Virus record (IMG/VR): IMGVR_UViG_3300013114_000447
Location: 1-64,000 of that record
DNA length: 64,000 nucleotides
Direction: 5' to 3' (one strand)
Origin: a virus
The position numbers were made by a program, and so were the translations under genes. Below the pieces are notes generated by a model, which made no database searches, was not told the origin of the DNA, and saw only the letters and a list, made by a program, of their open reading frames with translations. Below are positions 1 to 62,256 of the stretch, one piece after another; positions within the stretch are counted from its first letter, which is position 1, and every line of letters begins with the position of its first letter.

Positions 1-1041
1 GATTACAAGTTTCCCGTGCTGGTGCGCGGTAGGCATGGCGTCGGCAAATCCGAGGTAGTGTATCAGATTGCTGCTGATCGCAACCTTCCGATTGTCGAGC
101 GTCGTGCAAGCCAGATGACAGAGGGTGACTTGCTTGGTCTTCCCGATACCTGTGACACCGCTATCAGTGGGCGCAAGGCTACCACGTGGAACGCTCCAGA
201 TTGGCTTGTGACGGCTTGTGAGCAACCCGTGGTACTCTTCCTCGATGAAGTGGACCGGGCAACGATGGAAGTCCGTCAGGGACTCTTTGAGTTGACCGAC
301 AGTCGCAAGATCAACGGCTGGAAGCTGCACCCCGAAACCCTCATTGTCGCCGCTGTCAACGGTGGCGAGCATGGCGCACAATATCAGGTAGGAGAAATGG
401 ACCCTGCCGAGTTGGATCGCTGGACCGTGTTCGATGTCGAGCCTTCCGTAGAAGACTGGCTCACCTGGGGCAAGGACAATGTTAATGAAGTGCTGTGGGA
501 CTTCGTGAACCACAACCGTCAACACCTTGAGCATCAGGGCGAGCATGAGCCGAACAAAGTTTATCCTTCTCGCCGTAGCTGGAAGCGGTTTAATGATACC
601 GCTGTTCCCACTGGCGCGTTTACCGAGGATGGACAGAACGGCGAGTTGCTGTATCAGCTTGCAACCGCCTTTGTCGGCTTTGAAGCCGCTGTAGCACTTA
701 AGGACTTCGTTGAGAAGTATGAGTGGCAAGTGACGGTAGAGGATCTGCTTGACAACGGACAGATCGAGCGCACCGAGAAGTGGGGCATCAATGACCATGC
801 TGCGATGATCGAGAAGCTGGACGCCTCCGGTGTCCTGGCTGAAACGCTCAACGAGACACAGGTTAGTAACCTTGCCACCTATTTCGTCTCGCTGCCCTCG
901 GAAGTGGCCATGAAGTTGTGGACCGTCCTGGGAGACACCGACAACATTGAAAATGTCGTAGCACTCCACAAGGCAGAATCGGCCTCTGGACAGAAGGTTA
1001 GTGAACACCTTGTGGAAATCCTGGGAGGCTCCCAGGAGTGA
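1..1041 (+). CDS. MoxR-type AAA+ ATPase, 5' end outside window
   Basis: This is an AAA+ ATPase of the MoxR type, which usually works as a chaperone or remodeller together with a VWA-domain partner. The frame is open from base 1 and the Walker A motif (GRHGVGKS) lies only about ten residues in, so the true start is upstream and the gene is truncated by the window edge. Walker B (VLFLDEVDRA) is near visible residue 77. The gene overlaps the next one by 4 bases. The metallopeptidase/VWA gene at 1324 is the expected partner. The assignment to the MoxR class is firm; its target in the phage cycle is unknown. Confidence 0.85.
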   Translation, partial: DYKFPVLVRGRHGVGKSEVVYQIAADRNLPIVERRASQMTEGDLLGLPDTCDTAISGRKATTWNAPDWLVTACEQPVVLFLDEVDRATMEVRQGLFELTDSRKINGWKLHPETLIVAAVNGGEHGAQYQVGEMDPAELDRWTVFDVEPSVEDWLTWGKDNVNEVLWDFVNHNRQHLEHQGEHEPNKVYPSRRSWKRFNDTAVPTGAFTEDGQNGELLYQLATAFVGFEAAVALKDFVEKYEWQVTVEDLLDNGQIERTEKWGINDHAAMIEKLDASGVLAETLNETQVSNLATYFVSLPSEVAMKLWTVLGDTDNIENVVALHKAESASGQKVSEHLVEILGGSQE

Positions 1042-1247
1042 GGATCTTGAAGGCTGGCGACCTACTAATCAGGGAGCGCGATAAGCGCCCCTGTATCGTC
1101 TTGGAGGTCCAAGAGAGTACGAAACCCCAGTGGGGCACCCTGGACGCCAGCAGACGGCGATACAGGCTCTTTGAGAGCCATTCTGGAGTGTCCCGCTGGG
1201 TAGTCGATACCGAGGTTGCCGTCAAATACACCCTAACAACCGATTGA
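1038..1247 (+). CDS. Small beta-barrel 'GDLL' protein (69 aa)
   Basis: This small hypothetical protein starts with GTG overlapping the stop of the ATPase gene. It opens with MRILKAGDLLIRERDKRP followed by a CIVLEV strand. This is the first member in the window of a repeated family of one-domain, beta-rich proteins with an early GD[LI][LIV] motif and a following [GP]-x-[IV]-V strand, reminiscent of SH3/KOW-like barrels. Its stop codon lies inside the first TTGACA of the downstream promoter. Function is unknown. Confidence 0.65.
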   Translation: MRILKAGDLLIRERDKRPCIVLEVQESTKPQWGTLDASRRRYRLFESHSGVSRWVVDTEVAVKYTLTTD

Positions 1248-1298
1248 CATTCACTTGACAACTTTTCCCTGGACAAACCTACGTACCCATGCTATATT
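1244..1298 (+). promoter_or_regulatory. Sigma70-like promoter with triple TTGACA-type array
   Basis: The core promoter is TGGACA (1270-1275), a 17-base spacer and TATATT (1293-1298). Two further perfect TTGACA hexamers lie upstream at 1244 and 1255. Hexamer starts are offset by 11 and 15 bases. The same layout recurs at 2577 and 4032. A purine-rich Shine-Dalgarno (AAGGAAAG) precedes the ATG at 1324. Confidence 0.75.
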
Positions 1299-1323
1299 GT
1301 ATGTGTAGAAAGGAAAGAACCCT

Positions 1324-2580
1324 ATGAGCGACGACAAACCCACTCCCTTTGACTTGAACAAGCACACGGCGCGCCTGCTTATGCGCGAGCCGTTTTTCGC
1401 TGGGCTGTCTCGGCGGATCGACAAGACCCCGACGACTGAGATCCCGACTGCCGGTGTTCGCATTAATCCCGAACGGGCACAGTTTGAGTTGATGTATAAC
1501 CCTGACTTCATGGCGAGCCTTAGCGACAAGCACCGACTTGCGATCTTGAAGCATGAGTTTTACCATATCATCTTTGAGCATGTGACACACCGCAAGCCTG
1601 CCGATGGCATTAGCCGCCTGGACAACATTGCGATGGATCTGGCAATCAACGGCTTGCCCGACATGAAGACTAACCTTCCCAACGATGCCGAGCCAGGACC
1701 ACCGACCGGATCGGCTGGTGAGCCCATGAAGGCATGCATCCCCGGAGAAGGGCCATTCGCTCACTTGCCTTGTGAGAAGTCCTATGAGTGGTACAAGGCA
1801 GCACTCCAAGACATGCAGAAAGAGAAGCCAGAAGGCGAGCCAGGGGAGCCAGGACAAGGCGAGCCCGGTGATGGCGATCCCTTCGGCGGCATGGATGCGC
1901 TGGACGATCACGGCGAGTTTGGCGAGGGTCAAGGCACCGCAGACGAGATCGCTAAGGAACGTCTGAAGGAAGCGGTAAAGCAGGCAGCAGAGGAAGCCGA
2001 GAAGGCTAATAACTGGGGCACTGTTTCAGGAAACACCCGGCGCGACATTATGGATCGCATCGCTACTAAGGTTGACTGGCGCAAGGTGTTGCGTTATTTC
2101 GTGAAGACCACGCAACGCTCCGACAAGACCAGCACGCCGAGGAAACTGAACCGCAGATTTCCACGCATCCACGCAGGAAAGCGCGTCCGTCGTCACGCTC
2201 GCATTGCTATCAGCATCGACCAGTCTGGATCGGTGGATGATAAAATGCTTCAAGCGTTCTTCTCCGAGTTGAACAAGTTGGCCGAGATTGCCGAGTTTAC
2301 TGTTATCCCATTCGATTCAGTAGTGGGCGAGGATAAGATTTATGTATGGAAGAAGGGTGCAACCCGCAGAACCGAGCGCGTTATGTGCGGCGGGACTTGC
2401 TTTAATGCTCCAACCAAGTACGTGAACGAACACGGATTCGATGGACATATTATCCTTACTGACCTGATGGCACCTAAGCCGATGGCGAGCAAGTGTCAAC
2501 GCATGTGGATGACGACTAAGGCATACGCGGCGCGTCCCTACTTCCAGACTAACGAGCGAGTCATCGCAATCGACAGTTGA
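1324..2580 (+). CDS. Putative metallopeptidase with C-terminal VWA-like domain (DUF2201-like)
   Basis: This 418-aa protein combines an N-terminal zincin-like segment with HEFYH at residues 77-81 (HExxH) and a C-terminal VWA-like domain with the MIDAS motif DQSGS at residues 299-303, followed by GGTCF and a TDL aspartate. The middle is a low-complexity Gly/Glu/Pro stretch (about residues 155-200). This architecture matches the VWA-like metallopeptidase family usually encoded beside MoxR ATPases, as here. The ATPase probably remodels or loads the VWA protein on its target. The gene has its own strong promoter. Substrate and role in infection are not known. Confidence 0.8.
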   Translation: MSDDKPTPFDLNKHTARLLMREPFFAGLSRRIDKTPTTEIPTAGVRINPERAQFELMYNPDFMASLSDKHRLAILKHEFYHIIFEHVTHRKPADGISRLDNIAMDLAINGLPDMKTNLPNDAEPGPPTGSAGEPMKACIPGEGPFAHLPCEKSYEWYKAALQDMQKEKPEGEPGEPGQGEPGDGDPFGGMDALDDHGEFGEGQGTADEIAKERLKEAVKQAAEEAEKANNWGTVSGNTRRDIMDRIATKVDWRKVLRYFVKTTQRSDKTSTPRKLNRRFPRIHAGKRVRRHARIAISIDQSGSVDDKMLQAFFSELNKLAEIAEFTVIPFDSVVGEDKIYVWKKGATRRTERVMCGGTCFNAPTKYVNEHGFDGHIILTDLMAPKPMASKCQRMWMTTKAYAARPYFQTNERVIAIDS

Positions 2581-2630
2581 CAAGCACTTGACATTTCGGG
2601 GTAGACAACCTGCCCCGAATATGTTATATT
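2577..2630 (+). promoter_or_regulatory. Sigma70-like promoter with triple TTGACA-type array (second copy)
   Basis: TTGACA hexamers start at 2577 and 2588. The presumed -35 TAGACA is at 2602-2607, followed by a 17-base spacer and TATATT at 2625-2630. Offsets are 11 and 14 bases. The upstream gene's TGA stop is embedded in the first hexamer. Confidence 0.75.
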
Positions 2631-2658
2631 GCTATATACAAACAGGAGATCCCTACTT

Positions 2659-3468
2659 ATGGCTCGCACAACCTACGCCGACCGCTTGAAAGCCCTTATC
2701 ACCAACCCCGCTATGTCTGCGCGTGACTGCCAGTTTGCAAGCAGCTTGCTTGCCTACTACGTCAAGCGCAAGTCGCTGACCAGTGGCCGCGCTCGCTGTG
2801 TGCGCGAGCTTGAGGCACGGTACAGCGCCGAGGCAGTAGCCGAGCGTGCAGCCCGCACCGCACCGCTAACGGCTCGATTGCAGGCGCTCACTGCCCGTGT
2901 GACCGAGGGTTCATGGGCTGGCGGGTTCGTGGAGTCTTTGACCGAGCAAGTGGCGTCAGGACGCAACCTAAGCCCACGCCAGATCGAGATCCTGGAGAAG
3001 ATCGAGAGCGAGCATAGCGACGAGGCTATTAATGCTGCCGCTTCCTGGGATGCCGACTTCTCCGATGACATGCGCGACCGGCTGACCGTTGCGGCACGTT
3101 ATTATCGTCGCACTGGCTACTTTACTAACCTTGTGGATCGTGCGTTGACCCCTGATGGCCAACCGACCGCATTTATTCCGACTGAAAAGCAGTATCGGAA
3201 GGTCACCGAAAACAAGTATGCACAGAAGGTATTGACCGCGCACTATGACGCGCCAAAGTACGCCACTGGCTCGATGGTGCAACTGCGCCCGAGTTGCGGC
3301 TATCTCGCACGTTCCAAAGCAGGCGACAAGCCCTGTGTCGTTATCTCGACCACGGAGCCCATCGTGAGCGCGTGCAAGGGTGCAAAGATGTATCGGATCT
3401 TGCCCATCGGATCCGCAACTATGATCACAATCGAGGAGCGTCACATTAAGAAGGCGCGAGGAGTATAA
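2659..3468 (+). CDS. Hypothetical protein with C-terminal beta-barrel segment (269 aa)
   Basis: I do not recognise the family. The chosen ATG at 2659 follows an AGGAG ribosome site and lies downstream of the -10 box; an in-frame codon at 2629 would lie inside the promoter. The protein is Arg/Ala-rich and mostly helical, with a repeat-like feel (an N-terminal Ala-rich block and LSPRQIEILEKIESEH near residue 110). The last ~70 residues (from KYATGSMVQLRP) look beta-rich like the small 'GDLV' proteins nearby. It may be a nucleic-acid-binding early protein, but this is a guess. Confidence 0.65.
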   Translation: MARTTYADRLKALITNPAMSARDCQFASSLLAYYVKRKSLTSGRARCVRELEARYSAEAVAERAARTAPLTARLQALTARVTEGSWAGGFVESLTEQVASGRNLSPRQIEILEKIESEHSDEAINAAASWDADFSDDMRDRLTVAARYYRRTGYFTNLVDRALTPDGQPTAFIPTEKQYRKVTENKYAQKVLTAHYDAPKYATGSMVQLRPSCGYLARSKAGDKPCVVISTTEPIVSACKGAKMYRILPIGSATMITIEERHIKKARGV

Positions 3469-3470
3469 AC

Positions 3471-3776
3471 ATGAAGAGAATCCTAACCAACAGTAAAGTG
3501 ATCGAGGCATGGCAGCGCGGAGAACGCGCCGCTAACCATCGTGGCACACTTCAATGTTACAGTGATGGCACGCTGTATAGCTACAACCTGCATATCGGCC
3601 AGCGCACACCGTCAGGAGTGTGCATTGTGGGCGATTACACGGCTCCTGGCGGGGGGTTCAAGTCAGTGACTACCTCGTGCCATGTCGGACGCGCCAAGCG
3701 CGTTCCTGGGGTCACTGTGATGCACCCGCTTGTGTGGGTCGATTCTCCGTTGAGTAACGAGGAAATCCCATTCTAA
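3471..3776 (+). CDS. Conserved phage hypothetical (101 aa, 'DGTLYSYNLHIG' family)
   Basis: A small basic protein starting two bases after the upstream stop. The core SDGTLYSYNLHIGQRTPSG and a later TTSCHVGRAKRV stretch resemble a protein repeatedly found in phages that reads like a compact beta fold with a conserved His. No biochemical function is known to me. It sits in the operon started by the promoter at 2577. Confidence 0.6.
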   Translation: MKRILTNSKVIEAWQRGERAANHRGTLQCYSDGTLYSYNLHIGQRTPSGVCIVGDYTAPGGGFKSVTTSCHVGRAKRVPGVTVMHPLVWVDSPLSNEEIPF

Positions 3777-3789
3777 CCCGAGACAGATT

Positions 3790-4035
3790 ATGGAAGACAA
3801 CAATATCATTAACCTTGTCGAAATCCTTGAGGAGAAGGAAAGACAGAAAGAGAGAGAAGAAGAAATGGAAAAGGCCGAGCTACGCGATCAACTGCAATGG
3901 GTGTTGCAGAAACTCCATGAGAAGAACATCACCTATCGAGCAGAAGACGAAGAAGAAATAGGGTTTGATGCTTATGAGCGAGTTCCTAAACGTAACTGGT
4001 TCCAGCGTTTTCTGGACCGCTTTCGATACGATTGA
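3790..4035 (+). CDS. Highly charged helical protein (81 aa)
   Basis: This protein is Glu/Lys/Arg-rich, with an almost continuous predicted helix or coiled coil at residues 8-60 and an aromatic basic tail (RNWFQRFLDRFRYD) that could be amphipathic. No family is recognised. The stop codon falls within the TTGACA array of the following promoter. Confidence 0.55.
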   Translation: MEDNNIINLVEILEEKERQKEREEEMEKAELRDQLQWVLQKLHEKNITYRAEDEEEIGFDAYERVPKRNWFQRFLDRFRYD

Positions 4036-4086
4036 CACACACTTGACAACCTAAACCTTGACAGTCACCCCGAAAAGTGCTATATT
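4032..4086 (+). promoter_or_regulatory. Consensus sigma70 promoter with triple TTGACA array (third copy)
   Basis: Perfect TTGACA hexamers start at 4032, 4043 and 4058 (offsets 11 and 15). The last one is a perfect -35 placed 17 bases from TATATT at 4081-4086. This is the best of the three copies. It should drive the short-gene operon from 4110. Confidence 0.8.
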
Positions 4087-4780: not shown

Positions 4781-5078
4781 AGTCAGTATCCCGCCCGCGC
4801 TGTTCACAGCCCCGAGCGGTCAACGCTATGCGGTTGCAGGCTCACAGTGGATTCGTGTGCCCCTGGACACGACTCACGCGACCCTTGACCAGTTTGTGAG
4901 CTACTCGCCGCCAGAAGTCCAGCAGGACGACAATAATGGATCGTGGCAAGTGCAAGGCTCCAAGGGCAACACTTATACTGTGCGCGTTCGCGCCGGTCAG
5001 TGGTTCTGCTCCTGTCCTGGCTATGGCTTTCGGCGCAAGTGCCGACACATCGAGGAGACAAGAAATGCAAATCGGTGA
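4767..5078 (+). CDS. SWIM zinc-finger protein (103 aa)
   Basis: The C-terminal part (YTVRVRAGQWFCSCPGYGFR, then RKCRHIEE) contains a CxC-x(n)-CxH pattern, the SWIM zinc-finger signature associated with DNA, RNA or protein binding. The N-terminal ~50 residues carry no recognised domain. Translation starts at GTG within the preceding gene, and the next gene starts within this one, so the genes are strongly coupled. A stand-alone SWIM protein in a phage early operon suggests a nucleic-acid-binding regulator (inference). Confidence 0.7.
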   Translation: MTQVKVSIPPALFTAPSGQRYAVAGSQWIRVPLDTTHATLDQFVSYSPPEVQQDDNNGSWQVQGSKGNTYTVRVRAGQWFCSCPGYGFRRKCRHIEETRNANR

Positions 5079-5274
5079 TTTGATTCGTTTTGTTAATACG
5101 GGTTGTCATGGCGTGGTTCTGTCCGTCCGTCCGTCCCGCCACCACATCGATCCCGACTGGATTTATGTCTTGTGCGGTCCTGATGCTGATGGCCACCGGG
5201 CAACAGGCGAACCTACGGCTTTTCCCAGGGACTACCTCGCAAGAGTGTCGGAGGTTATAAATGCAAGTCGGTGA
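5065..5274 (+). CDS. Small beta-barrel 'GDLI' protein (69 aa)
   Basis: The ATG at 5065 follows GAGGAGAC and starts MQIGDLIRFVNTGCHGVVLSV, closely matching the next two genes (MQVGDLVVF, MKIGDLITF). Longer in-frame extensions upstream are unlikely because they run antisense to the ribosome site and lack a better start. It is a family member of unknown function with a 14-base overlap on each side. Confidence 0.65.
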   Translation: MQIGDLIRFVNTGCHGVVLSVRPSRHHIDPDWIYVLCGPDADGHRATGEPTAFPRDYLARVSEVINASR

Positions 5275-5449
5275 TCTCGTAGTGTTTAGGGATGACCGGG
5301 TGCCTGGAGTGATTGTAGCAGAAAGGCGCGACGATCCGCTCCCCAAGAAACTCCGTGTGGGTGTATTGTGGATCGATTGTAATGATGTGTCGTGGGAGCC
5401 AATCCAATACTTGCGAGTGATAAGCGAGACAGATAATGAAAATCGGTGA
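5261..5449 (+). CDS. Small beta-barrel 'GDLV' protein (62 aa)
   Basis: Begins MQVGDLVVFRDDRVPGVIVAE and closes with a hydrophobic LRVISETDN strand. It is paralogous to the flanking genes, with the same gene-to-gene overlap. This tandem trio (5065, 5261, 5436) is the clearest duplication series of the family. Confidence 0.65.
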   Translation: MQVGDLVVFRDDRVPGVIVAERRDDPLPKKLRVGVLWIDCNDVSWEPIQYLRVISETDNENR

Positions 5450-5618
5450 TCTAATAACATTTCAGATTGACTATGATTCAGAGTGTATTGAAGATATAGG
5501 GATTGTCACAGAAATAGAACCGACTCTTGGTTATGCCATAATCGCATGGCCGTGGGGACAGGGGCGACACCGCACATGCGGGTTGCATATATTAAGCGAG
5601 AACGGAGAACAAGAATGA
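5436..5618 (+). CDS. Small beta-barrel 'GDLI' protein (60 aa)
   Basis: Begins MKIGDLITFQIDYDSECI, then DIGIVTEIEPTLGYAIIAWPWG and LHILSENGEQE. The order (GD motif, G-x-V strand, W-containing strand, LxILS end) defines the family. Its 3' end overlaps a 33-aa membrane micro-ORF. Confidence 0.65.
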   Translation: MKIGDLITFQIDYDSECIEDIGIVTEIEPTLGYAIIAWPWGQGRHRTCGLHILSENGEQE

Positions 5619-6027: not shown

Positions 6028-6106
6028 AAATATACTATTAGTATTAGGTATCATCATAGTATGGGAACACAGGTATGGTATCATTAAGTTAATAGAAGGT
6101 ATTTGA
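6020..6106 (+). CDS. Micro membrane protein (28 aa)
   Basis: GTG start overlapping the preceding gene. The translation is one hydrophobic helix (IKNILLVLGIIIVWEHRYG) with a short tail. Its TGA stop overlaps the ATG of the next micro-ORF. Supported only by overlap and topology. Confidence 0.4.
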   Translation: MIKNILLVLGIIIVWEHRYGIIKLIEGI

Positions 6107-6186
6107 TGTTTCTGTTTGTCTTTGCTAATGTGGTTATACTTGTATCAATGTGGTACGTAGTGGATCAAAGTGGAGCGTGGTGGTAG
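6106..6186 (+). CDS. Micro membrane protein (26 aa)
   Basis: The ATG overlaps the preceding stop (TGATG). The product MFLFVFANVVILVSMWYVV plus a short acidic tail is a single membrane helix. It belongs to the same run of coupled micro-ORFs. Confidence 0.4.
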   Translation: MFLFVFANVVILVSMWYVVDQSGAWW

Positions 6187-6187
6187 T

Positions 6188-6310
6188 GTGGATGTATGTG
6201 ATATGGATATTTCTATTCTAAATGTATATTTATTTGTGTTGGTTTGCGGTGGTATGTGGTTTAATACTTTATACCCTGCCCGGATCGCGCTGTCAACGGG
6301 TGCGTTTTGA
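6188..6310 (+). CDS. Possible micro membrane protein (40 aa)
   Basis: A GTG-started ORF begins one base after the previous stop and contains a hydrophobic stretch ILNVYLFVLVCGGMWF around residues 10-25. No clear ribosome site is seen, so this is the weakest member of the micro-ORF run. Confidence 0.25.
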   Translation: MDVCDMDISILNVYLFVLVCGGMWFNTLYPARIALSTGAF

Positions 6311-6340
6311 TACGCCCACGCCGTCGCATTAAACCGCATG

Positions 6341-6360
6341 CCGTATACATTCTTATACGG
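6341..6360 (+). other. Perfect 7-bp inverted repeat (hairpin)
   Basis: CCGTATA (6341-6347) and TATACGG (6354-6360) surround a 6-base loop. No T run follows, so it is not a classical terminator. It could be an operator or an RNA hairpin upstream of the gene at 6396. Confidence 0.35.
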
Positions 6361-6395
6361 TGCGCCGGGATTGATGGCCGAGAGAAGAAAACATA

Positions 6396-6527
6396 ATGAT
6401 TAAACGTATCAAGAAAGCAGCGTGCCTATCCCACAGAGTGCTGGGGTATAGTATCTTACTCGCCGCCATATATGCGACAGCGTTGGGTTACATGTATAGT
6501 AACGCCAAGCATGACAAGAAACATTAA
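6396..6527 (+). CDS. Small membrane protein (43 aa)
   Basis: The ATG follows a purine-rich AGAGAAGAAAA tract. The protein has a basic N-terminus (MIKRIKKAACLSHR), a single hydrophobic segment (LGYSILLAAIYATALGYMY) and a basic His/Lys tail, giving an N-in single-pass topology. Unknown function. Confidence 0.5.
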   Translation: MIKRIKKAACLSHRVLGYSILLAAIYATALGYMYSNAKHDKKH

Positions 6528-6829
6528 CCTTTAATATGTGTACGGTCAGCTCACGAACATTAACCTTAGCCGACCTGAGCCAAGCGAGCGCAGCGAGCGA
6601 TTAATGGCCGAGAGTAACAAAAATATATATATAAAACATATATAACAGACAAAGCTTTTACGCGACAGCAGTACCCCCCACCCCCCTCCTACCCGGAATC
6701 TATGTCACACTATAGGAATAGATGTATCAGCCGGGCTAGATCCCTTTTCGATATCGCTAAGAAAAAATCAGAATATTGAGTTTGTTAAAAATGCGCCGGT
6801 AAAAATTTCCCAAACCTACCTACTACAGG
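6528..6829 (+). other. Non-coding gap at composition boundary
   Basis: I see no convincing gene here. It contains the direct repeat GCGAGCG-CA-GCGAGCG (about 6584-6599), a second copy of TGGCCGAGAG (also upstream of 6396), an AT-only stretch (6620-6645) and a C-rich tract at about 6672-6692 that would be G-rich on the minus strand. It separates the GC-rich block from the AT-rich block. It might hold regulatory or origin-like elements, but nothing is decisive. Confidence 0.4.
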
Positions 6830-7072
6830 ATGGAGACTAAAGAAAAGCGCTTTCGATGCCGCATGATGGCCGCAGACTCAAAGTGTCCAAAGTGTGGTTT
6901 CCGAGTACATTGGAGTTGCAACGGAACCAAAGGCTATGCCTACTGCGGACATTCACCCACCGCCACACGTATGTGGATCCCAGGTTCCCCCATAACGTTT
7001 TGTGAGTGGGAAGGCAAGTGTAAGCGCAGACCAGACGGAAGAGTAGAAATATTTTATTTAGAAGAGATATAG
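6830..7072 (+). CDS. Cys-rich putative zinc-binding protein (80 aa)
   Basis: Contains CPKCGFRVHWSC followed by YCGHS and later FCEWEGKC. The paired Cys suggest one or two zinc-binding knuckles. It is basic and small, typical of phage regulatory proteins. The ribosome site is weak (CAGG directly before ATG). No specific family is recognised. Confidence 0.55.
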   Translation: METKEKRFRCRMMAADSKCPKCGFRVHWSCNGTKGYAYCGHSPTATRMWIPGSPITFCEWEGKCKRRPDGRVEIFYLEEI

Positions 7073-29282: not shown

Positions 29283-29508
29283 ATATAACGGACACTATAT
29301 CATGGGCGACTTGGTCGGCTCACACAAAACAGAAGCTGCCGCCATGAAAAAAGCAAAGAAAGAAATAAAATTTAAATTTTCTGTGAGAGAAAAGAAAAAG
29401 AACGAGATACTTATTTGGCTTGATGGTGAAAACCACGAACCACTAGGAGTTATCACACACGAATTAAAGGGGACGAAACGGCCTCGACAGGGTAAGGAGA
29501 AAGGATAG
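29266..29508 (+). CDS. Small hypothetical running into the tmRNA (80 aa)
   Basis: MWKVYKYNGHYIMGDLVGSH starts a small alpha/beta protein, followed by a Lys-rich helix and LIWLDGENHEPLGVITHE. The last 13 codons and the stop lie within the 5' end of the tmRNA gene (from 29469). Processing of the tmRNA would cut this message. The ORF may be real but expressed only from unprocessed transcripts. Confidence 0.5.
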   Translation: MWKVYKYNGHYIMGDLVGSHKTEAAAMKKAKKEIKFKFSVREKKKNEILIWLDGENHEPLGVITHELKGTKRPRQGKEKG

Positions 29509-29890
29509 TGCAAGTAGTCAAACGTACCAGCAGACTTTAAATGCAGATACAAAACATAATTGCTAATAATAATAACAATTTCGAATCTGTCCGCTTAGCG
29601 GCTTAATCGGGTGGTTACCTAAAGCCATCAATCCAATTTAGGTATTTATCGCAACAGGATGGTAAGCGATATCTTATAGCCATCTATCTTTTTGTTAGTT
29701 TCTGATAGCAAACTGACGCATCGATTGGAAAGGGTGAGGGTTTAGCTTGTCAGTCGATTAATCACCCCGCTTTTGTTGATTTTCACATAGCGGATGCCGG
29801 CCGTCAGACCGGTAAAAATCAACTAAACTTGTGAATGACTTGAATTTTAATATGCTTTGGACGCGGGTTCGACTCCCGCCGTCTCCACCA
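29469..29890 (+). ncRNA. ssrA: tmRNA (transfer-messenger RNA)
   Basis: The 5' end GGGGACGAAACGGCCTCGAC and the 3' end (T arm GCGGG-TTCGACT-CCCGC, then GTCTCC-A-CCA) are canonical. GGGGAC pairs with GTCTCC to form the acceptor stem, and the CCA is encoded. The tag reading frame runs from GCT at 29562 to TAA at 29604-29606 and reads ANNNNNFESVRLAA, ending in the usual LAA-type degradation signal. Length is about 422 nt. Phage-borne tmRNA genes are rare but known. I see no smpB in the window, so it must use the host SmpB. Confidence 0.93.
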
Positions 29891-31160: not shown

Positions 31161-31376
31161 ATGAGCTTTTTAGACAAATTTAAGAGTATTATTACATTTG
31201 ATAGGCTAACAGTAGGAAATAAGGAAGTAGAATCAACACCAACAACCTCTACTTCCTCCGCTCCCGATCTGTCGACGCTTAAGGTTACGGAACTGAAGGC
31301 TCTGGCTAAAGAGCGAGGCATAAAAGGCTATTCTACATTAAAGAAGGCAGAACTGTTAAGCTTGTTGAGTGAATGA
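31161..31376 (+). CDS. Small protein with SAP/Rho_N-like C-terminal motif (71 aa)
   Basis: The C-terminus LSTLKVTELKALAKERGIKG followed by YSTLKKAELLSLL matches the SAP/Rho N-terminal helix-extension-helix motif that binds nucleic acids. The N-terminal part (FLDKFKSIITFDRL) resembles an amphipathic helix joined by a Thr/Ser linker. Likely a nucleic-acid-binding phage protein. Confidence 0.65.
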   Translation: MSFLDKFKSIITFDRLTVGNKEVESTPTTSTSSAPDLSTLKVTELKALAKERGIKGYSTLKKAELLSLLSE

Positions 31377-54841: not shown

Positions 54842-55156
54842 ATGAAAATTTTTGTTGACATTGATGAAACTATTTGCAAGTATTTGGGTGAGCGGCATTA
54901 CCCGAGTGCTATCCCCATAAAAGAAAGAATACTTAGAATCAATGAACTTTATGATGAAGGTCATGAAATTACGTATTGGACCGCAAGAGGGGCCCTGACC
55001 GGTATTGACTGGCTTGATATTACAAAAAAGCAGCTTAACGACTGGAACTGCAAGTATCATAAATTAAGCGTTGGCGAAAAGCCTGTATATGACTTATTGA
55101 TATGCGATAAAGCGATCAATAGTAATGAATATTTTAAAAAAGAAGAGGCTGAATAG
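54842..55156 (+). CDS. Small HAD-type phosphatase (104 aa)
   Basis: MKIFVDIDETICKYLGERHY has HAD motif I (DIDET), and ITYWTARGALTG has motif II (TAR-type). The end DLLICDKAI gives motif IV (D-K). Such short capsule-biosynthesis phosphatases act on sugar phosphates. It starts 4 bases after the methyltransferase stop. Confidence 0.8.
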   Translation: MKIFVDIDETICKYLGERHYPSAIPIKERILRINELYDEGHEITYWTARGALTGIDWLDITKKQLNDWNCKYHKLSVGEKPVYDLLICDKAINSNEYFKKEEAE

Positions 55157-55160
55157 CAAA

Positions 55161-56081
55161 ATGTTAGATCTTATTGTCTTTGTAAAGTCTTCAGGAGCCA
55201 ACGTTAGACTTGATAATTTGTATGACATGGTTAATTCCTTTATTGTTAAAAATAAAAATTTAAATTATAAATTTTATTTTGCTGTTGACAGCGGGATAGA
55301 GAGTTCTCTAACGAATATGTTAAAAGAAATTAATCATGAGGACAAGATTTTAGATATTGTTACCACCAATAATTCGTGGGCAATTGATTTCAACATCTTT
55401 CTTGATACATATAAGAACGCATCAAAATGGTTGTTAATCACTCATGATGACGTAGTGTTCGAAAGTGATGATTATTTCAATAGGATTACTGATGCCGTGA
55501 AAGGATACGAAGAGCAGATTGGGTGGGTAACTTCTACTAGTGAATATTACTATAAATATGAAAGAAAAATGATCACTGATACCTTCCGTCCTGGTTTTTA
55601 CAAAGATGCCGCCAATTGGGGCGCAATGTTTCAACTTCACACACGCGATTTAGATAAGCCTGATTATCCCAAAGGACCTGTAAAGATCCATGGACCAATG
55701 TCCGCAATTATGATAACAACAATGAAATCAATGCAAAAAATTGGATTTTGTGAAGATTGGACGCGCTATACTATGCTAATTGATGAAGACTGGTCCTTGG
55801 AAGCGCTAAAGAATAATTTATGGAACGTGTGGGTGCCACATATATATCATCTACACCCTAATAGAAAAAATTTAAGAAAGGCGAATAATCGTTGGATGGA
55901 AGAAGCACACGCCGGCCTAAAGCAAAAATGGGGGTTTGATACAGGTAATCCCACAACTACAGGATGGGAACAAGGTGTCTCTATCCCTTTAGAGGATTTA
56001 AGAAAGATATATGAGAACACCAATATTCCTTGGTCTTCTTATCGAAACAGCTATGATTGGGAATATCTAGATGATGACTGA
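55161..56081 (+). CDS. Glycosyltransferase-like protein (306 aa)
   Basis: Start ATG 55161 (MLDLIVFVKSSGANVRLDNL). The acidic strand end LLITHDDVVFESDDYFNRIT is like the metal-binding site of GT-A enzymes, and LIDEDWSLEALKNN may be a second acidic site. The C-terminal part contains NVWVPHIYHLHPN. Its exact family is not clear. Confidence 0.6.
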   Translation: MLDLIVFVKSSGANVRLDNLYDMVNSFIVKNKNLNYKFYFAVDSGIESSLTNMLKEINHEDKILDIVTTNNSWAIDFNIFLDTYKNASKWLLITHDDVVFESDDYFNRITDAVKGYEEQIGWVTSTSEYYYKYERKMITDTFRPGFYKDAANWGAMFQLHTRDLDKPDYPKGPVKIHGPMSAIMITTMKSMQKIGFCEDWTRYTMLIDEDWSLEALKNNLWNVWVPHIYHLHPNRKNLRKANNRWMEEAHAGLKQKWGFDTGNPTTTGWEQGVSIPLEDLRKIYENTNIPWSSYRNSYDWEYLDDD

Positions 56082-56658
56082 TTTTTGGAAAAACATTTGG
56101 GATACTAAAGGTGATAGCGCCAGCACGGACCTGCTTTTCCTAGATGGCTATGAACACTTAAATATTGAATTTAATAGCCAAGACCTTTGTGAGAAGATTG
56201 CGCACCTAGGCGAATTTGAATATGGAGAAAAAATCTTAGAGGTAGGCTGTGGCTGTGGATTTTTGGCTCGCGAATTCCAGATCCATTATGCATACACAGG
56301 TGTAGACTATTCAGAATCAATTATTAATAAACACAAACAACTGTTCCCGACTCACTGTGTAGAGGTGGCGAATTCGGACAGGTTGCCTTTCGAAGATAAT
56401 TCCTTCGATAGAGTTTTTTGCTTCGGACTTTTTCAATACCTGCCAAATGAAGAGCATGCAGCTAAAACAATAAATGAAATGCAACGGGTGTCACGGAATA
56501 CAGTATTTCTAGGAGATCTTAAGGACTCCACCACTCGTCAAGAACACTTTGTTTTTCCAAAAGAGAAATTAGATGCCCAAGGCTTTAAAATGTCGGATTG
56601 CCTCTATGACGCGTCAGACGTCGAAAGGTATAACGCAGTTTACGGAGGAAATAGATGA
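56071..56658 (+). CDS. SAM-dependent methyltransferase, class I (195 aa)
   Basis: KILEVGCGCGFLAREFQIHY is a perfect motif I; AYTGVDYSESII and NSFDRVFCFGLFQYLPNEEH follow. It probably methylates a sugar or a small molecule. It overlaps the upstream gene by 11 bases. Confidence 0.85.
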   Translation: MMTDFWKNIWDTKGDSASTDLLFLDGYEHLNIEFNSQDLCEKIAHLGEFEYGEKILEVGCGCGFLAREFQIHYAYTGVDYSESIINKHKQLFPTHCVEVANSDRLPFEDNSFDRVFCFGLFQYLPNEEHAAKTINEMQRVSRNTVFLGDLKDSTTRQEHFVFPKEKLDAQGFKMSDCLYDASDVERYNAVYGGNR

Positions 56659-57218
56659 TTTGGAATGAAATTTTGTGTTTAGGAGACTCCATCACATATG
56701 GGGCCCGCGACCGATATGGTCGCTCTTATCCTGCAGAATTAGGCAAAATTCTCTTTGAAGAAACTGGAGAATTTTATTATTGCCATAATTATAGTCAATG
56801 CGGAGACACTAGTTCAGATCTTCTAAGAAAGGCGTGGAACGCTACCAAAGGACACAAAGAAGCGAAGTTGGCGATCATTATGATTGGAACCAACGATACT
56901 CAAAGTGGCATACCTCCGGAAATTTATCGCGACAATCTCAGACAGATTGTTTCAATCACTAAGATTCATGGTAAGATACCTATTGTTGCCACTCTTCCGC
57001 AGTTGGGATTTACACCTTTATATTTAAAAAATTGTGATTATATTGATTTGTATAATAAAGTAATTTTAGAGCTATCGAAATCAATGGGCTTTGAAGTATG
57101 TGATATGAGTGACACAGAGAAATATTATATTGATAACGTACATTACACACATGAGGGCTATAATTTGCTAGCCCAAAAATTTGCAGATAAAATTTTAAGT
57201 TTACAAACAAGGAGATAG
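56655..57218 (+). CDS. SGNH/GDSL hydrolase (187 aa)
   Basis: Block I LCLGDSITYGARD, block II SQCGDTSSDL, block III IMIGTNDTQ and block V DNVHYTHEGY give the Ser, Gly, Asn and Asp/His residues of the family. It acts as an esterase, perhaps removing O-acetyl groups from glycans. Typical length. Confidence 0.85.
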   Translation: MIWNEILCLGDSITYGARDRYGRSYPAELGKILFEETGEFYYCHNYSQCGDTSSDLLRKAWNATKGHKEAKLAIIMIGTNDTQSGIPPEIYRDNLRQIVSITKIHGKIPIVATLPQLGFTPLYLKNCDYIDLYNKVILELSKSMGFEVCDMSDTEKYYIDNVHYTHEGYNLLAQKFADKILSLQTRR

Positions 57219-57219
57219 A

Positions 57220-58047
57220 ATGGGTACTGGATATAGTGTAGGAGTAATTGGCGGAGGCTTTGTGGGTTCGGCCGTCGCCTTTGGATTTGGGAGTAGTAAC
57301 TCGTATGATTTTGAAGTCAAGGTATATGACTTAGATCCCAACAAGAGCACACATTCATTTGAAGAAACGGTTACGCAATCAGACTTTATTTTTATGTGTC
57401 TCCCGACACCTTCGAGAGAAGACATGTCAATTGACCTTTCATACATAGAAAAGAGCATGGAACAAGTAAGCAAGCTGGTTGATCCGTTTGAACAAACAGT
57501 GGTTATTAAGTCCACTGTCATCCCTGGCACCTGTCGTAGGCTATCGAAAAAATATGGTCTTAACATCGTATCCAATCCTGAATTCTTGACCGAGAGACGG
57601 GCAAAATGGGACTTTATTAACGCTGCTCAAGTTGTAATCGGAAGCGATGAAAAGGATGCCGGCTCCAAAGTAAAGAGCCTTTATGAAAAAAGATTTTCGT
57701 CTATGAAATATTTGGTAACTGACAGCACCACTGCCGAATTTGTTAAGTACATGTTAAACTGTTTCTTTTCGGTTAAGTTAAGTTTTATGAATGAAATGTA
57801 TCAAGTGGGACAGTCTTTTGGAGTAGATTGGGACGATGCGGTCACTGGATTAGTATCTGATAGTCGCGTCGGTGATTCACACGTCACCGTTCCTGGCCCA
57901 GACGGCAAGTTTGGCTTTGGTGGCCATTGCTTCCCCAAAGATATTAATGCCATGATTAGATTTGCTGAGCGATTAGGGGTCGATACCAAGGTGTTGAAAG
58001 CAGCGTGGGACAAGAATTTAGATATTCGTGAGGAAAACTTGCGATGA
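57220..58047 (+). CDS. UDP-glucose/GDP-mannose dehydrogenase-like, C-terminally short (275 aa)
   Basis: The Rossmann start SVGVIGGGFVGSAVAFGFGS, the strand FIFMCLPTPSREDMS, STVIPGT, NPEFLTERRAKWDFINAAQV and the catalytic Cys motif FGFGGHCFPKD are all present. It ends at residue 275, so the C-terminal UDP-binding domain of normal ~400-aa enzymes is missing. It may be non-oxidative or work with another subunit. Confidence 0.75.
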   Translation: MGTGYSVGVIGGGFVGSAVAFGFGSSNSYDFEVKVYDLDPNKSTHSFEETVTQSDFIFMCLPTPSREDMSIDLSYIEKSMEQVSKLVDPFEQTVVIKSTVIPGTCRRLSKKYGLNIVSNPEFLTERRAKWDFINAAQVVIGSDEKDAGSKVKSLYEKRFSSMKYLVTDSTTAEFVKYMLNCFFSVKLSFMNEMYQVGQSFGVDWDDAVTGLVSDSRVGDSHVTVPGPDGKFGFGGHCFPKDINAMIRFAERLGVDTKVLKAAWDKNLDIREENLR

Positions 58048-58991
58048 GAGTTTTAGTAACCGGTGCAAAAGGAGTTGTAGGCTCTAAATTGAGTGAAACT
58101 TTGACGTTAAAAGGCCATAGTGTTTTTGGTGTTGATTTGTTTCACGCTGAAGAACTCTATGGACACGGACTAGGAAAGGTAAAGAATGACAATTATTTTC
58201 GTTGTGATATCGGAGAATACAGGCAGATAAAAGATGTCATCGAATATGTTCAACCTGAGATTGTATTTAATTGTGCTGCTGAATTTGGGCGCTGGAATGG
58301 CGAACACTTCTATGAACAAGTATGGAAAAGCAACGCCATTGGTTTGAAGAATATTATTAGGCTACAAGAGCAACACGGATTTAAACTTATACACTGTTCG
58401 TCATCCGAAGTGTATGGCGATTATAAAGATGTGATGTATGAAGATGTATTAGAAAAAATACCGATTAATCAAATGAATGATTACGCAATTTCGAAGAAAG
58501 TTAATGAAATGCAAATTAAAAACTCCCAGGTTATGTATGATACTCAAACTGTACTTATTCGTATTTTTAACACATATGGTCCTGGCGAATGGTATCATCC
58601 TTTTAGAAGTGTAAATTGTCTTTTTACGTACAATCTTTTACACAACAGGCCCATTACGGTTTTCAAGGGGCATACGCGAACGAGTACCTATATCTATGAT
58701 TGTACTCGAACCATTTCAAACATTATTGATAACTTTAAGAATGGAGAAGTGTACAACATTGCTAGCCAAAGTCACCATACTATCGAAGAATTAGTAGAGA
58801 TGATATTAAAAGCCACTGGCGCAGATCCAGGACTTGTTACTTATAAAGAACACTTAGAAATTTTGACCACAAAAGATAAATTTGTAGATGCCAAAAAGGC
58901 TCGCTCGGATCTGGATCATCAAGATACAGTATCATTAGAGAAAGGCGTCCAGAAGACCGTTGAGTGGATGAAAGAATATTATAGATTATGA
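58044..58991 (+). CDS. NAD-dependent epimerase/dehydratase (315 aa)
   Basis: Motif RVLVTGAKGVVGSKLSETLT; catalytic Tyr and Lys in MNDYAISKKVNEMQ; RIFNTYGPGEWYHP. Uses a nucleotide-sugar substrate; exact chemistry unclear. ATGA overlap with the dehydrogenase gene. Confidence 0.85.
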   Translation: MRVLVTGAKGVVGSKLSETLTLKGHSVFGVDLFHAEELYGHGLGKVKNDNYFRCDIGEYRQIKDVIEYVQPEIVFNCAAEFGRWNGEHFYEQVWKSNAIGLKNIIRLQEQHGFKLIHCSSSEVYGDYKDVMYEDVLEKIPINQMNDYAISKKVNEMQIKNSQVMYDTQTVLIRIFNTYGPGEWYHPFRSVNCLFTYNLLHNRPITVFKGHTRTSTYIYDCTRTISNIIDNFKNGEVYNIASQSHHTIEELVEMILKATGADPGLVTYKEHLEILTTKDKFVDAKKARSDLDHQDTVSLEKGVQKTVEWMKEYYRL

Positions 58992-60061
58992 AAAAAATAG
59001 TTCACATTGTAGGAACGCGTCCAAATTATGTTAAAGCAGCACCAGTAATTAATGCTATTAATTTTGGAACCCAAACGATCATCAACACAGGGCAACATTA
59101 TGATAAAAGCTTATCGGCGGATATTATAAAGTCTCTAAATATGCGCCCTCCTGATATAAATCTAAATATCCCGAAAGGTTTAAATGTGTTCGATAGAATC
59201 TGCCATTTGCTGACAGATATTGCGCAACAACTGGCGGAAATAAAACCTGATATTGTAATATTATATGGAGATGTGGACTCAACATTGGCGGGAGCGCTCG
59301 CAGCTACGCGCTTACTCATACCTACCGCCCATGTTGAAGCCGGCTTACGAAGTTTTGACAATACAATGCCTGAAGAAATAAATAGAAAGATTGTAGACAG
59401 ATTAGCATCCATGCATTTTGTAACAGAAAAATCAGGAATTACCAATTTAAATCATGAAGGTTTTAGCACCAGTGTGCACTTTGTGGGAAATACGATGATT
59501 GATTCTTTAGTTGCTGTCATGAATAGTGATTCATATAAAAAGTCTTCTTATGAAAACGATGATAATATTTTATTGACTTGTCATCGCCCCTTCAATGTGG
59601 ATACAGAAGACGCCCTACAGAATATATTAAAAATGTGTCAGTCTATTGACGAAAAGATTGTCTGGCCAGTGCATCCCCGGACTGCACATAAAATGCAATC
59701 TTCTGAGAACCTATCGCAAGCTTTTAAGGATACTTCTAATTTGGAACTAATTGAGCCTCTAGATTACTGTAATTTTTTAAAAATGATGGCAACTAGCCGC
59801 CTTGTGATTACAGATTCGGGAGGGATCCAAGAAGAAACAACATATTTAAAGATTCCCTGTTTAACGATTCGCCCCAACACCGAACGACCGATTACGGTTG
59901 AAATTGGAAGCAACATTTTGAGTTCATTTGAAGATGTTTCTTCTTATGTGGAGATGGCTTACAAGAACGAATATAAGACTTGCACACTTCCCCCTAAATG
60001 GGATGGCGCCGCCTCTACACGTATTGCTGAAAAACTTTTAAGTTTTATGGAGAAAATATAG
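58988..60061 (+). CDS. wecB: UDP-GlcNAc 2-epimerase (357 aa)
   Basis: HIVGTRPNYVKAAPVINAIN, HVEAGLRSFDNTMPEEINRK, CHRPFNVDTE and ITDSGGIQEETTYLKIPCLT are clear motifs of the non-hydrolysing WecB-type enzyme. It interconverts UDP-GlcNAc and UDP-ManNAc, the entry for sialic-acid-like sugars used by neuB at 53367. Normal length. The HRREN motif is changed to HRPFN. Confidence 0.85.
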   Translation: MKKIVHIVGTRPNYVKAAPVINAINFGTQTIINTGQHYDKSLSADIIKSLNMRPPDINLNIPKGLNVFDRICHLLTDIAQQLAEIKPDIVILYGDVDSTLAGALAATRLLIPTAHVEAGLRSFDNTMPEEINRKIVDRLASMHFVTEKSGITNLNHEGFSTSVHFVGNTMIDSLVAVMNSDSYKKSSYENDDNILLTCHRPFNVDTEDALQNILKMCQSIDEKIVWPVHPRTAHKMQSSENLSQAFKDTSNLELIEPLDYCNFLKMMATSRLVITDSGGIQEETTYLKIPCLTIRPNTERPITVEIGSNILSSFEDVSSYVEMAYKNEYKTCTLPPKWDGAASTRIAEKLLSFMEKI

Positions 60062-60062
60062 A

Positions 60063-60890
60063 ATGAGCGATAGAAGACATATTTCATTTGTAGGCATTAA
60101 AAGAAGTGGAAATCATGCAGTACAAAACTGGATTTTACATCAGATCCCAGAACCTATTTCAGTGATCAATAATCACCAATCTGATGCCGCAAAGCGAATT
60201 ACTCACCCTGCAGATTTTGATGCACCATCACTGCACACGGGCGCCATGGAAAACGAATCGGCAATGTACACGTATGAAAATCTAAGCCTTCAAGGAACAG
60301 GCCATGGAACTCCAATGCATATTGATGACTTTAAAAAACTACCTCCCTATAATTATTTGGCAAATATATTATTGTTGCGCGATCCGTTTAACAACTTGGC
60401 TAGTTTATACCAACACGCGCTGCGACGTCCCGGGATGGAGCCCCCTCATATAAAGAACTTTATTATGTTGTGGAAAAGCTATGCGCACGAGTTTACAAAT
60501 AATACCAATTTTTTGACACCCCTCGACACCGCCCTGAAGCCTGGAAAAGTGTGTATCTCTTATAATGAATGGTTTAAAAGCAAGCCATATAGACGTGGTA
60601 TATCTCAACAATTAGGATTGTCATTCAATGATAATGGGCTACAATTCGTTAATGGATTTGGAAATGGAAGCAGTTTTGATGGTGGGCAGCTACAAGGAAA
60701 CGCCCAGACAATGAACGTTCTTAATCGATGGCGTACCCTCGAAGATCCCCGAGACTCCAAAACGTTTCCTACATATCCATTTCGGGTCTTGTGGCCAGAT
60801 GCGCTTAAAATATTAGCTCAAGAACGAGACCTAATGTGGTATGTTCAGATGATATTTCCAGAAATTTTTGCAGAAGTAATAAGACAATAA
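60063..60890 (+). CDS. P-loop sulfotransferase-like protein (275 aa)
   Basis: FVGIKRSGNHAVQNWILHQI (phosphosulfate-binding-like loop) and ILLLRDPFNNLASLYQHALR (3'-phosphate segment) fit the sulfotransferase fold. The C-terminal part is aromatic (DLMWYVQMIF). Likely transfers sulfate onto a glycan. It is the third such protein in the window. Confidence 0.65.
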   Translation: MSDRRHISFVGIKRSGNHAVQNWILHQIPEPISVINNHQSDAAKRITHPADFDAPSLHTGAMENESAMYTYENLSLQGTGHGTPMHIDDFKKLPPYNYLANILLLRDPFNNLASLYQHALRRPGMEPPHIKNFIMLWKSYAHEFTNNTNFLTPLDTALKPGKVCISYNEWFKSKPYRRGISQQLGLSFNDNGLQFVNGFGNGSSFDGGQLQGNAQTMNVLNRWRTLEDPRDSKTFPTYPFRVLWPDALKILAQERDLMWYVQMIFPEIFAEVIRQ

Positions 60891-60909
60891 CAATTATAGG
60901 ATTTTAAAA

Positions 60910-61290
60910 ATGAAAAACAAAGAAAACACAATGACAACTCTTCTACCAATGACCCATGTAGATAAAGGATGGGGCTGGGAACGCTGGATTGTTAATTGTG
61001 AAGAATACTGTGGAAAATTATTATTCTTTAACAAAGGAAAACGCTGTTCTTGGCACTTTCATAAATTAAAGGATGAAGTATTTTATTTACAATCAGGCAA
61101 AATGATGATATACTATTCAGATGAAGATGATATTTCTATGGCCAAACAACAAATTTTAAAGGCAGGCGAGAACTTTCATGTATATCGCGGCCTGCGACAC
61201 CAAATGGTAGCTTTGGAGGATTCTGAGCTATTCGAATTTTCAACCCAACATTTTGACAGCGATAGCCATAGAGTATTGAAGGGCGACTAA
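60910..61290 (+). CDS. Cupin protein, ManA-type (126 aa)
   Basis: KLLFFNKGKRCSWHFHKLKD and FHVYRGLRHQMVALEDSELF are the two cupin motifs (H-x-H, then H), as in type II mannose-6-phosphate isomerase domains. It starts with a good ribosome site. It could supply mannose phosphate for the GDP-mannose/GDP-fucose branch that follows. Confidence 0.75.
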   Translation: MKNKENTMTTLLPMTHVDKGWGWERWIVNCEEYCGKLLFFNKGKRCSWHFHKLKDEVFYLQSGKMMIYYSDEDDISMAKQQILKAGENFHVYRGLRHQMVALEDSELFEFSTQHFDSDSHRVLKGD

Positions 61291-61326
61291 TGGATATTTA
61301 TTTAAACTCAGGAGTATATTTTAATA

Positions 61327-62256
61327 ATGACTAAAAAAATCTTAGTAACCGGCGGCAGTGGAATGGTAGGCGCCGCATTACAATCTATTTTACCAGATGC
61401 AATTTATATTTCATCTAAAGACTTTGATTTACGCAACCCTCTTGATGCTGAAGCCATGTTTGCCATTCATAAGCCGGATTGGGTTATTCATTTAGCTGCG
61501 CGAGTCGGAGGAGTCAAGGCTAATTCCGAATATGTGGGAGAGTTTTTCTTGGACAATGTACTCATAAACACTAATGTTTTAGAATATTCTCGCCGCCACA
61601 ATGTAGAGAAAGTAGTCTCGTTATTGAGCACTTGTGTATATCCTGACAAAGCCACTTACCCCTTGACAGAAGATCAGTTTCACAATGGACCACCCCATCT
61701 TTCTAATTATGGCTATGCGCATGCCAAGCGCATGATAGAGGTGCAGTCCAGAGCGTACAGAGAACAATATGGTTGTAATTTTATAACTGCAATTCCCAAT
61801 AATCTATTTGGAGAAAACGATAATTACGATCTCGAAGACTCACATGTGATGCCGGCAATTATGCATAAAATGCTATTGGCCAAACGAAATAAACAAAATA
61901 TGTTATTATGGGGGGATGGCAGTCCCTTACGCGAATTTACTTATTCGGTTGACTTGGCTAAGATTTTATTATTGTTGTTAGAAAAGTATGACGAACCCGC
62001 GCCAATTAATGTTGGCAACACGGGTGAACACTCGATTAAAGAAGTAGTAGAGTTGATTGCCAACTTTATGGACTTTGAAGGAGATATCCAGTGGGACACA
62101 TCTAAACCTGCAGGCCAATATCGCAAACCATCGGATAATTCTAAGTTAATAGAATTAGGATGGGCGGCTACAGACTATACCGATTTTGAAGAAGCGTTAG
62201 AAAAATCATGTAAGTGGTTTACAGATACATATCCAAATTTAAGAGGTGCGAAATGA
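61327..62256 (+). CDS. fcl: GDP-L-fucose synthase (309 aa)
   Basis: KKILVTGGSGMVGAALQSIL, HLAARVGGVKANSEYVGEFF, LLSTCVYPDK and NYGYAHAKRMIEVQSRAYRE (YxxxK) are Fcl/WcaG-type motifs; IPNNLFGENDNYDLEDSHVM completes the family. It converts GDP-4-keto-6-deoxymannose into GDP-L-fucose, following Gmd (next gene). Confidence 0.9.
   Translation: MTKKILVTGGSGMVGAALQSILPDAIYISSKDFDLRNPLDAEAMFAIHKPDWVIHLAARVGGVKANSEYVGEFFLDNVLINTNVLEYSRRHNVEKVVSLLSTCVYPDKATYPLTEDQFHNGPPHLSNYGYAHAKRMIEVQSRAYREQYGCNFITAIPNNLFGENDNYDLEDSHVMPAIMHKMLLAKRNKQNMLLWGDGSPLREFTYSVDLAKILLLLLEKYDEPAPINVGNTGEHSIKEVVELIANFMDFEGDIQWDTSKPAGQYRKPSDNSKLIELGWAATDYTDFEEALEKSCKWFTDTYPNLRGAK

Follow-up and report, generated by a model that had tools for sequence, protein, structure and literature searches.

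Three promoters near the start of the 64,000-nucleotide stretch of DNA that we analysed (hereafter the window, i.e. bases 1-64000 of the IMG/VR virus record IMGVR_UViG_3300013114_000447, which is 203,204 bases long) each carry two additional TTGACA boxes in front of the -35 element. Such arrays are a real promoter class, specific to one clade of phages, which are large, uncultured and have T4-like heads. This double-box class is a new form of phage early promoter: the genes in the array block are small and probably early. We lean slightly towards the reading that these early promoters have a two-half-site element which is bound by a separate DNA-binding protein that aids RNA polymerase. In searches of open-licence PMC papers, none of the titles and abstract openings listed describes the element.

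Double-box arrays in the phage record and its relatives

An earlier note on the window, made from the letters alone, had reported triple TTGACA-type hexamers at 1244, 2577 and 4032 with offsets of 11 + 15, 11 + 14 and 11 + 15 and a 17-base spacer, and had placed an upstream stop codon inside the first hexamer each time. Both observations are borne out by the sequence (Table 1): TGA lies within the first box in all three arrays, and the corresponding open reading frames (ORFs) end at 1247, 2580 and 4035. Of the three -35 elements, only that of array C (4058) matches TTGACA exactly. Using TTGACANNCACTTGACA as the pattern, we found three matches in the window at 0 mismatches and six at up to three mismatches, as compared to a shuffle mean of 2.0, so the arrays are not explained by chance.

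The final 119 bases of the record are a copy of its first 119, and the record therefore closes into a circle. The earlier note had also proposed scanning the complete genome for the pattern; our scan of the whole record (up to two mismatches) returned 12 matches on the forward strand, none on the reverse strand and none for the reversed control. These 12 pairs are located from 195609 to the record end plus 1-4048, which would amount to a single block spanning about 12 kb on a circular record. The step from box 1 to box 2 is 11 bases in all 12 arrays, and that from box 2 to the -35 is 15 bases in 11 of them (14 at 2577); all 12 have a 17-base spacer and the extended -10 (TG plus one base, then TATATT or TATAAT). 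Scored by a weight matrix of the 21-base upstream block, the 12 sites reach 22.7-35.7 (a fit that holds by construction, the matrix being derived from these sites), and the top scores are 16.4 in 10 order-1 random genomes and 15.4 on the opposite strand. Two weaker sites, at 193288 (before a tRNA-Leu) and 193440, keep box 2, the -35 and the -10 and have a degenerate box 1; both score 16.3, no better than the best random-genome score.

We searched a viral collection with the 418-residue protein encoded behind array A (the anchor protein), which gave 183 matching stretches, of which 80 were kept. Fifty-six of these loci (L011-L066; 730,262 bases, selected by protein) have anchors that are 62-93% identical, and L067-L089 make up a second, mostly distant group, in which L083 (71% identical, with an incomplete anchor gene) is placed by list position only. 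The loci are fragments, and a result of 'none' can mean not seen. In the 56 loci, TTGACA pairs 11 bases apart occur 242 times on the plus strand and 4 times on the minus strand, and the best control hexamer other than shifted TTGACA gives 6 pairs. Counting promoter cores (with cores whose last 50 bases are identical merged), an array is carried by 331 of the 518 plus-strand cores and 0 of the 111 minus-strand cores in L011-L066, versus 3/180 and 0/50, respectively, in L067-L089.

The geometry of the 331 arrays, given as the box 1 to box 2 step, the box 2 to -35 step and the spacer, is (11,15,17) in 206, (11,15,16) in 48, (11,15,18) in 36, (11,14,17) in 29 and (10,15,17) in 8, and 4 have other geometries; the half-site step is thus 11 bases in 322 of the 331, where the finder allowed 10 to 12. 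The 207 distinct (11,15,17) arrays give the logo C TTGACA TT(C/T)NC TTGACA ACTTA..CC TTGACt TT ... TGnTATAtT. The boxes are near-invariant in this logo although spacers and surroundings have diverged, and conservation extends beyond the hexamers to the TTY in the linker, the C before box 2 and the A after box 2. Among 17 genome-size records, 9 (the record studied here, G002, G003, G004 and G007-G011) contain 8-17 pairs at up to one mismatch, almost all of which share a strand and a single block within their record (12 of 13 pairs are in the block in the record studied here), and the other 8 contain 0-3.

Since the boxes themselves could steer the choice of sites, we also read only the promoter before the anchor gene (79 of the 80 loci), which avoids picking sites by boxes. 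Left out were L083 (no complete start), L068 (no core), L067, L087 and L088 (score below the limit) and duplicates; the sequences share ancestry, so the counts are not independent. The earlier note had made its case depend on the upstream hexamers being conserved in relatives that keep the core promoter. That holds inside the clade, where 45 of the 48 distinct promoters of L010-L066 have the array, and it does not extend to the distant relatives L067-L089, where none of the 16 distinct promoters has the boxes though the promoter is kept. The 45 arrays have an exact TTGACA in box 1 in 39, in box 2 in 43 and at the -35 in only 3, as compared to 12 of the 16 array-less promoters with TTGACA at the -35.

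When the presence of an exact pair in the locus is mapped as a label onto a tree of 72 anchor proteins, 5 changes account for it, versus 20.9 in shuffles. One clade (support 100/99) has the exact pair in 46 of its 51 rows; L066, outside it, also has a pair. The array-less genomes G005 and G006 hold L062 and L064, which fall inside the array clade, and the boxes therefore seem to have been lost in both; G005 has a perfect -35 in 4 of its 8 promoter-like cores.

Pairs are also found outside recognised promoters: 23 of the 56 loci have at least one pair that the core finder left unlinked to a promoter. In 15 of these 23, a pair lies no more than about 700 bases away from a non-coding C-run with GAATGTATGTC or a variant behind it, and L013 has several double boxes in succession beside this motif. 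No TTGACA pair was found at the corresponding stretch of the phage studied here (window 6030-6829). The stretch itself is conserved and non-coding, with GTGG-rich repeats and the C-run followed by GAATGTATGTC or a variant (also L013 11340-11530 and L018 8960-9120), and is possibly a replication origin or packaging site.

Table 1. Positions in the window of the array elements, the anchor gene and the C-run stretch.
Feature	Positions	Strand	Basis or remark
Array A box 1, TTGACA	1244-1249	+	TGA at 1245-1247 is the stop of ORF 1038-1247
Array A box 2, TTGACA	1255-1260	+	sequence
Array A -35 element, TGGACA	1270-1275	+	sequence
Array A -10 element, TATATT, preceded by TG plus one base	1293-1298	+	sequence
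Gene behind array A: 418-residue protein, PHROG 1314; anchor gene for relatives	1324-2580	+	ORF and PHROG
Array B box 1, TTGACA	2577-2582	+	TGA at 2578-2580 is the stop of the 418-residue gene
Array B box 2, TTGACA	2588-2593	+	sequence
Array B -35 element, TAGACA, 14 bases from box 2 start	2602-2607	+	sequence
Array B -10 element, TATATT	2625-2630	+	sequence
Array C box 1, TTGACA	4032-4037	+	TGA at 4033-4035 is the stop of ORF 3790-4035
Array C box 2, TTGACA	4043-4048	+	sequence
Array C -35 element, TTGACA	4058-4063	+	sequence
Array C -10 element, TATATT	4081-4086	+	sequence
Mostly non-coding stretch with C-run at 6674; relatives carry further TTGACA pairs there	6030-6829		comparison

How the boxes may be read

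In the reading that we favour, the promoter would be of the sigma70 type, with an extended -10 and a loose -35, and a dedicated two-half-site element, TTGACA-TTYNC-TTGACA, would stand in front of it at about -61 and -50, with half-sites 11 bases apart and a 15-base step from the second one to the -35. A sequence-specific DNA-binding protein (a host protein, a virion-delivered protein or an unrecognised phage protein) may bind there as two protomers, head to tail on the same DNA face, and would help RNA polymerase at the array promoters by recruitment, as suggested by the relaxed -35 where the boxes are present. By simple arithmetic, 11 bases are about one helix turn, which puts both boxes on the same side of the DNA, and 15 bases are about 1.4 turns, which puts the -35 on a different side. 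The 15-base step stays constant at spacers of 16, 17 and 18, so the position of the pair follows that of the -35 more closely than that of the -10. The fixed register with the -35 and the relaxation of the -35 favour activation over repression, and from these sequence features we infer that the boxes activate, and do not repress, the array promoters. It is also possible, and we hold this only tentatively, that the arrays contain a new upstream element through which polymerase is brought in via two invariant -35-like boxes at -50/-61, read by polymerase subunits that infection has altered or by an unrecognised protein of a new DNA-binding family, encoded by the phage or brought in with the virion, with the relaxed -35 contact as a consequence.

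The earlier note had offered three explanations for the extra hexamers. Alternative promoters are not supported, as the 207-array logo lacks a -10 where box 1 or box 2, taken as a -35, would call for one (17 bases further on). Tandem docking of polymerase is disfavoured: the spacing, the boxes kept more strictly than the -35 itself and the pairs outside promoters argue for a dedicated protein site rather than repeated polymerase docking. The same three features (the spacing being one turn) make operators bound by a regulator the best-fitting of the three; none of the candidates for a phage-encoded regulator, as suggested by the note, stood up.

Several observations weigh against a separate activator. 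The -35 is an exact TTGACA in 5 of the 12 array promoters of the phage studied here and in 7 of 12 in G009, so its relaxation is a tendency and not a rule, which weakens the case for activation. Unlinked pairs may belong to promoters whose cores were rejected by the finder, and at least one of them (in L024) is clearly upstream of an array promoter. Moreover, no reader protein was found by gene-content comparison, by family scans or among individual candidates. Four array genomes (the phage studied here, G002, G007 and G009) and two array-less ones (G005 and G013) gave three families present in 4/4 and 0/2, none of which is a recognisable DNA-binding regulator; the sample is small and its divergence high, and a phage reader could be missed. 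A small zinc-ribbon gene (window 6830-7072), the only candidate of plausible DNA-binding appearance in these gene-content comparisons, present in 3/3 of the first-tested array genomes and 0/2 array-less ones, was then not found in the array-bearing G003, G004, G008 and G011 and was rejected. For an OmpR-type winged helix-turn-helix, no match over the cut-off was obtained in the record (best E 0.0155, inside a large ORF).

Other candidates were tried. The match of an 'Arc-like repressor' (phrog_390, window 31161-31376) lies, as judged by eye, in a SAP/Rho-N-like tail and not in a ribbon-helix-helix, and apart from this failed label no immunity repressor is among the PHROG and Pfam families listed for the proteins scanned. 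A 73-residue protein of L215, labelled HTH-17-like by eye, has no relative in the other loci compared and was likewise rejected. As for a host regulon, an exact full-architecture scan of a genome collection (a strict pattern, which a looser regulon would escape) hit a single stretch, L215. This stretch encodes the anchor protein and is a contig from a phage of the present family that lies inside a metagenome-assembled genome of Ca. Neomarinimicrobiota; the rest of that genome has only single-mismatch background pairs.

A phage protein on the double box might instead act as a repressor that shuts the early promoters off later, like at mycobacteriophage operators and stoperators, which we regard as unlikely. 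The core (extended -10 and 17-base spacer) would suffice unaided, and the pairs are numerous, share one orientation with respect to transcription and are also found outside recognised promoters, as described for stoperators (PMC6550527). However, repression requires no constant 15-base distance between the pair and the -35, yet this distance is kept despite spacer changes. In addition, the -35 is weaker rather than stronger where the boxes occur, the pairs sit in one early block and not genome-wide, and the four-versus-two genome comparison gave no array-specific repressor gene. Polymerase itself might read the boxes, which do have the -35 hexamer sequence, through sigma region 4 on the extra hexamers or through the C-terminal domains of alpha at -50/-61, perhaps virion-modified as by T4 Alt; this strikes us as improbable. 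The 11-base steps upstream of the -35 fit repeated positions of the alpha C-terminal domains. Sigma region 4 on all three hexamers, by contrast, predicts that the true -35 would be the most conserved of them, whereas it is the least conserved, and the lack of a -10 at the proper distance from either box also speaks against it. UP elements are A/T-rich (PMC2988021), not TTGACA. T4 early promoters do have an extra consensus beyond the -35 and -10, and Alt-modified polymerase favours some of them (PMC2988021). The genome comparison, with no separate reader gene found, fits polymerase reading as well, and an Alt-like enzyme is conceivable among the unscanned large proteins.

The boxes may also have no function of their own, if a promoter cassette is copied between genes by recombination with the boxes hitch-hiking and box 1 kept for its stop codon; we consider this highly improbable. 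The overlap with stop codons is indeed frequent: in 10 of the 12 arrays of the phage studied here, the box 1 TGA is the stop of an ORF with 58 codons or more, and in the other 2 the stop is the box 2 TGA. The box 1 ORF at 202714 is just 60 codons long, and a longer, 262-codon gene ends with TAG just before the box. In the relatives, 277 of the 307 arrays with enough upstream sequence have an ORF of at least 50 codons ending nearby; the stop falls within box 1 in 151 of these 277 and within box 2 in 40. Such overlap makes a gene and the next promoter one compact unit and may ease gene shuffling. A stop needs only TGA, yet the preceding T and the following C and A are also kept, and the near-invariant boxes amid diverged spacers and surroundings likewise speak against hitch-hiking. 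A separate protein bound to the two half-sites remains the reading that we prefer.

Comparison with known promoters and operators

Like the arrays, T4 early promoters are many near-identical strong sigma70-type promoters before small early genes of a phage with this type of head, with an extended -10 and an extra upstream consensus (PMC2988021 and PMC1524935). They differ in having an A-rich UP element beside a GTTTAC -35, whereas the arrays have a pair of TTGACA boxes spaced by one helix turn, with a loose -35 following 15 bases further on. The T4-type combination of UP element (about -40 to -44) and GTTTAC-type -35 is absent from our logo, which has TTGAC at the -35 and is only moderately A/T-rich from -44 to -36 (ACTTAANCC).

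OmpR-type sites (the pho box of PhoB and the SARP/AfsR box) resemble the arrays in having two direct-repeat half-sites whose position with respect to the core is strictly set, with a step of 11 bases in SARP boxes (PMC10936776 and PMC10294691). In the complementary strand, the array pair becomes TGTCA-N6-TGTCA, which is pho box-like, and the usual orientation of the pho box is opposite to that of the array pair. The AfsR box overlaps the -35 and the spacer, and the SARP 3' repeat is 8 bases from the -10, whereas the array pair is wholly upstream of a separate -35, starting 15 and 26 bases before it, so that it lacks the overlap of the OmpR/SARP type.

Operators and stoperators of mycobacteriophage L5 are single sites of 13 bases, and their consensus contains TGTCAAG, the complement of CTTGACA. 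As with the arrays, these sites are asymmetric, mostly in one orientation relative to transcription, and found at early promoters and elsewhere (PMC6550527). The stoperator layout is nevertheless not that of the arrays: L5 has single sites spread over the genome of a temperate phage, the arrays are paired sites in one block, and no repressor or integrase is among the families listed for this phage.

The arrays can serve as an early-gene marker for this clade, which the anchor-protein matches of a single scan represent. They also pose the question of which factor recognises a -35 hexamer that is unable to serve as one: a new host-takeover activator, a repressor, or polymerase making contact in an unusual way.

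The phage, its gene content and other features

Pfam and PHROG scans (alignments A1-A4) covered 221 predicted proteins of up to 1000 residues, other than about a dozen at window 55125-63224. Matches include the T4-type portal, the capsid protein Gp23, a prohead protease, gp32-like and UvsX-like proteins, a DnaB-type helicase, a family A DNA polymerase, PhoH, GroEL and tubulin/FtsZ; no sigma factor, MotA, AsiA or Alt is among the families listed in these scans. A presumed capsid protein (L211:12814-14085, picked by size and place) is only 29% identical to its nearest isolates, Microcystis phage Mel-JY01 and Flavobacterium phages. A MoxR-like ATPase gene is upstream of, and adjoins, the anchor gene.

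The array block is G+C-rich (0.55 in the first 4 kb of the window versus 0.36-0.48 elsewhere in it). The same block contains at least 12 small ORFs (60-87 codons) with MKVGDLV-like starts, at record positions 195959-201546 (beyond the window) and window positions 5065-5618, often sharing the DNA of their start region (GTCGGTGAYTT, 7 copies); they make up a tandemly amplified family of small proteins. A 262-residue protein of the block (record 201925-202713, beyond the window) has its own array promoter at 201845 and two CCHC zinc-knuckle-like motifs, recognised by eye.

Similar pairs were seen in other phages. A look-alike pair in Citrobacter phage Moogle and Shigella phage Sf13, for which the Moogle sequence alone was read, is spaced by 12 bases and lacks a clear core; it was taken as chance. 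In a different phage group (L095 8970-9010, also L116, L118, L154 and L157), whose nearest isolates are the Methylophilales phages Melnitz, TTGACA-N5-TTGACA occurs in another register, with box 1 at 17 bases from TATAAC (the -35 distance) and box 2 inside the spacer.

Other RNA features of the record include a transfer-messenger RNA at window 29469-29890 (Rfam RF00023, 112.5 bits; tag ANNNNNFESVRLAA), a tRNA-Asn at window 37540 and three further tRNAs at record positions 193351, 194814 and 195342.

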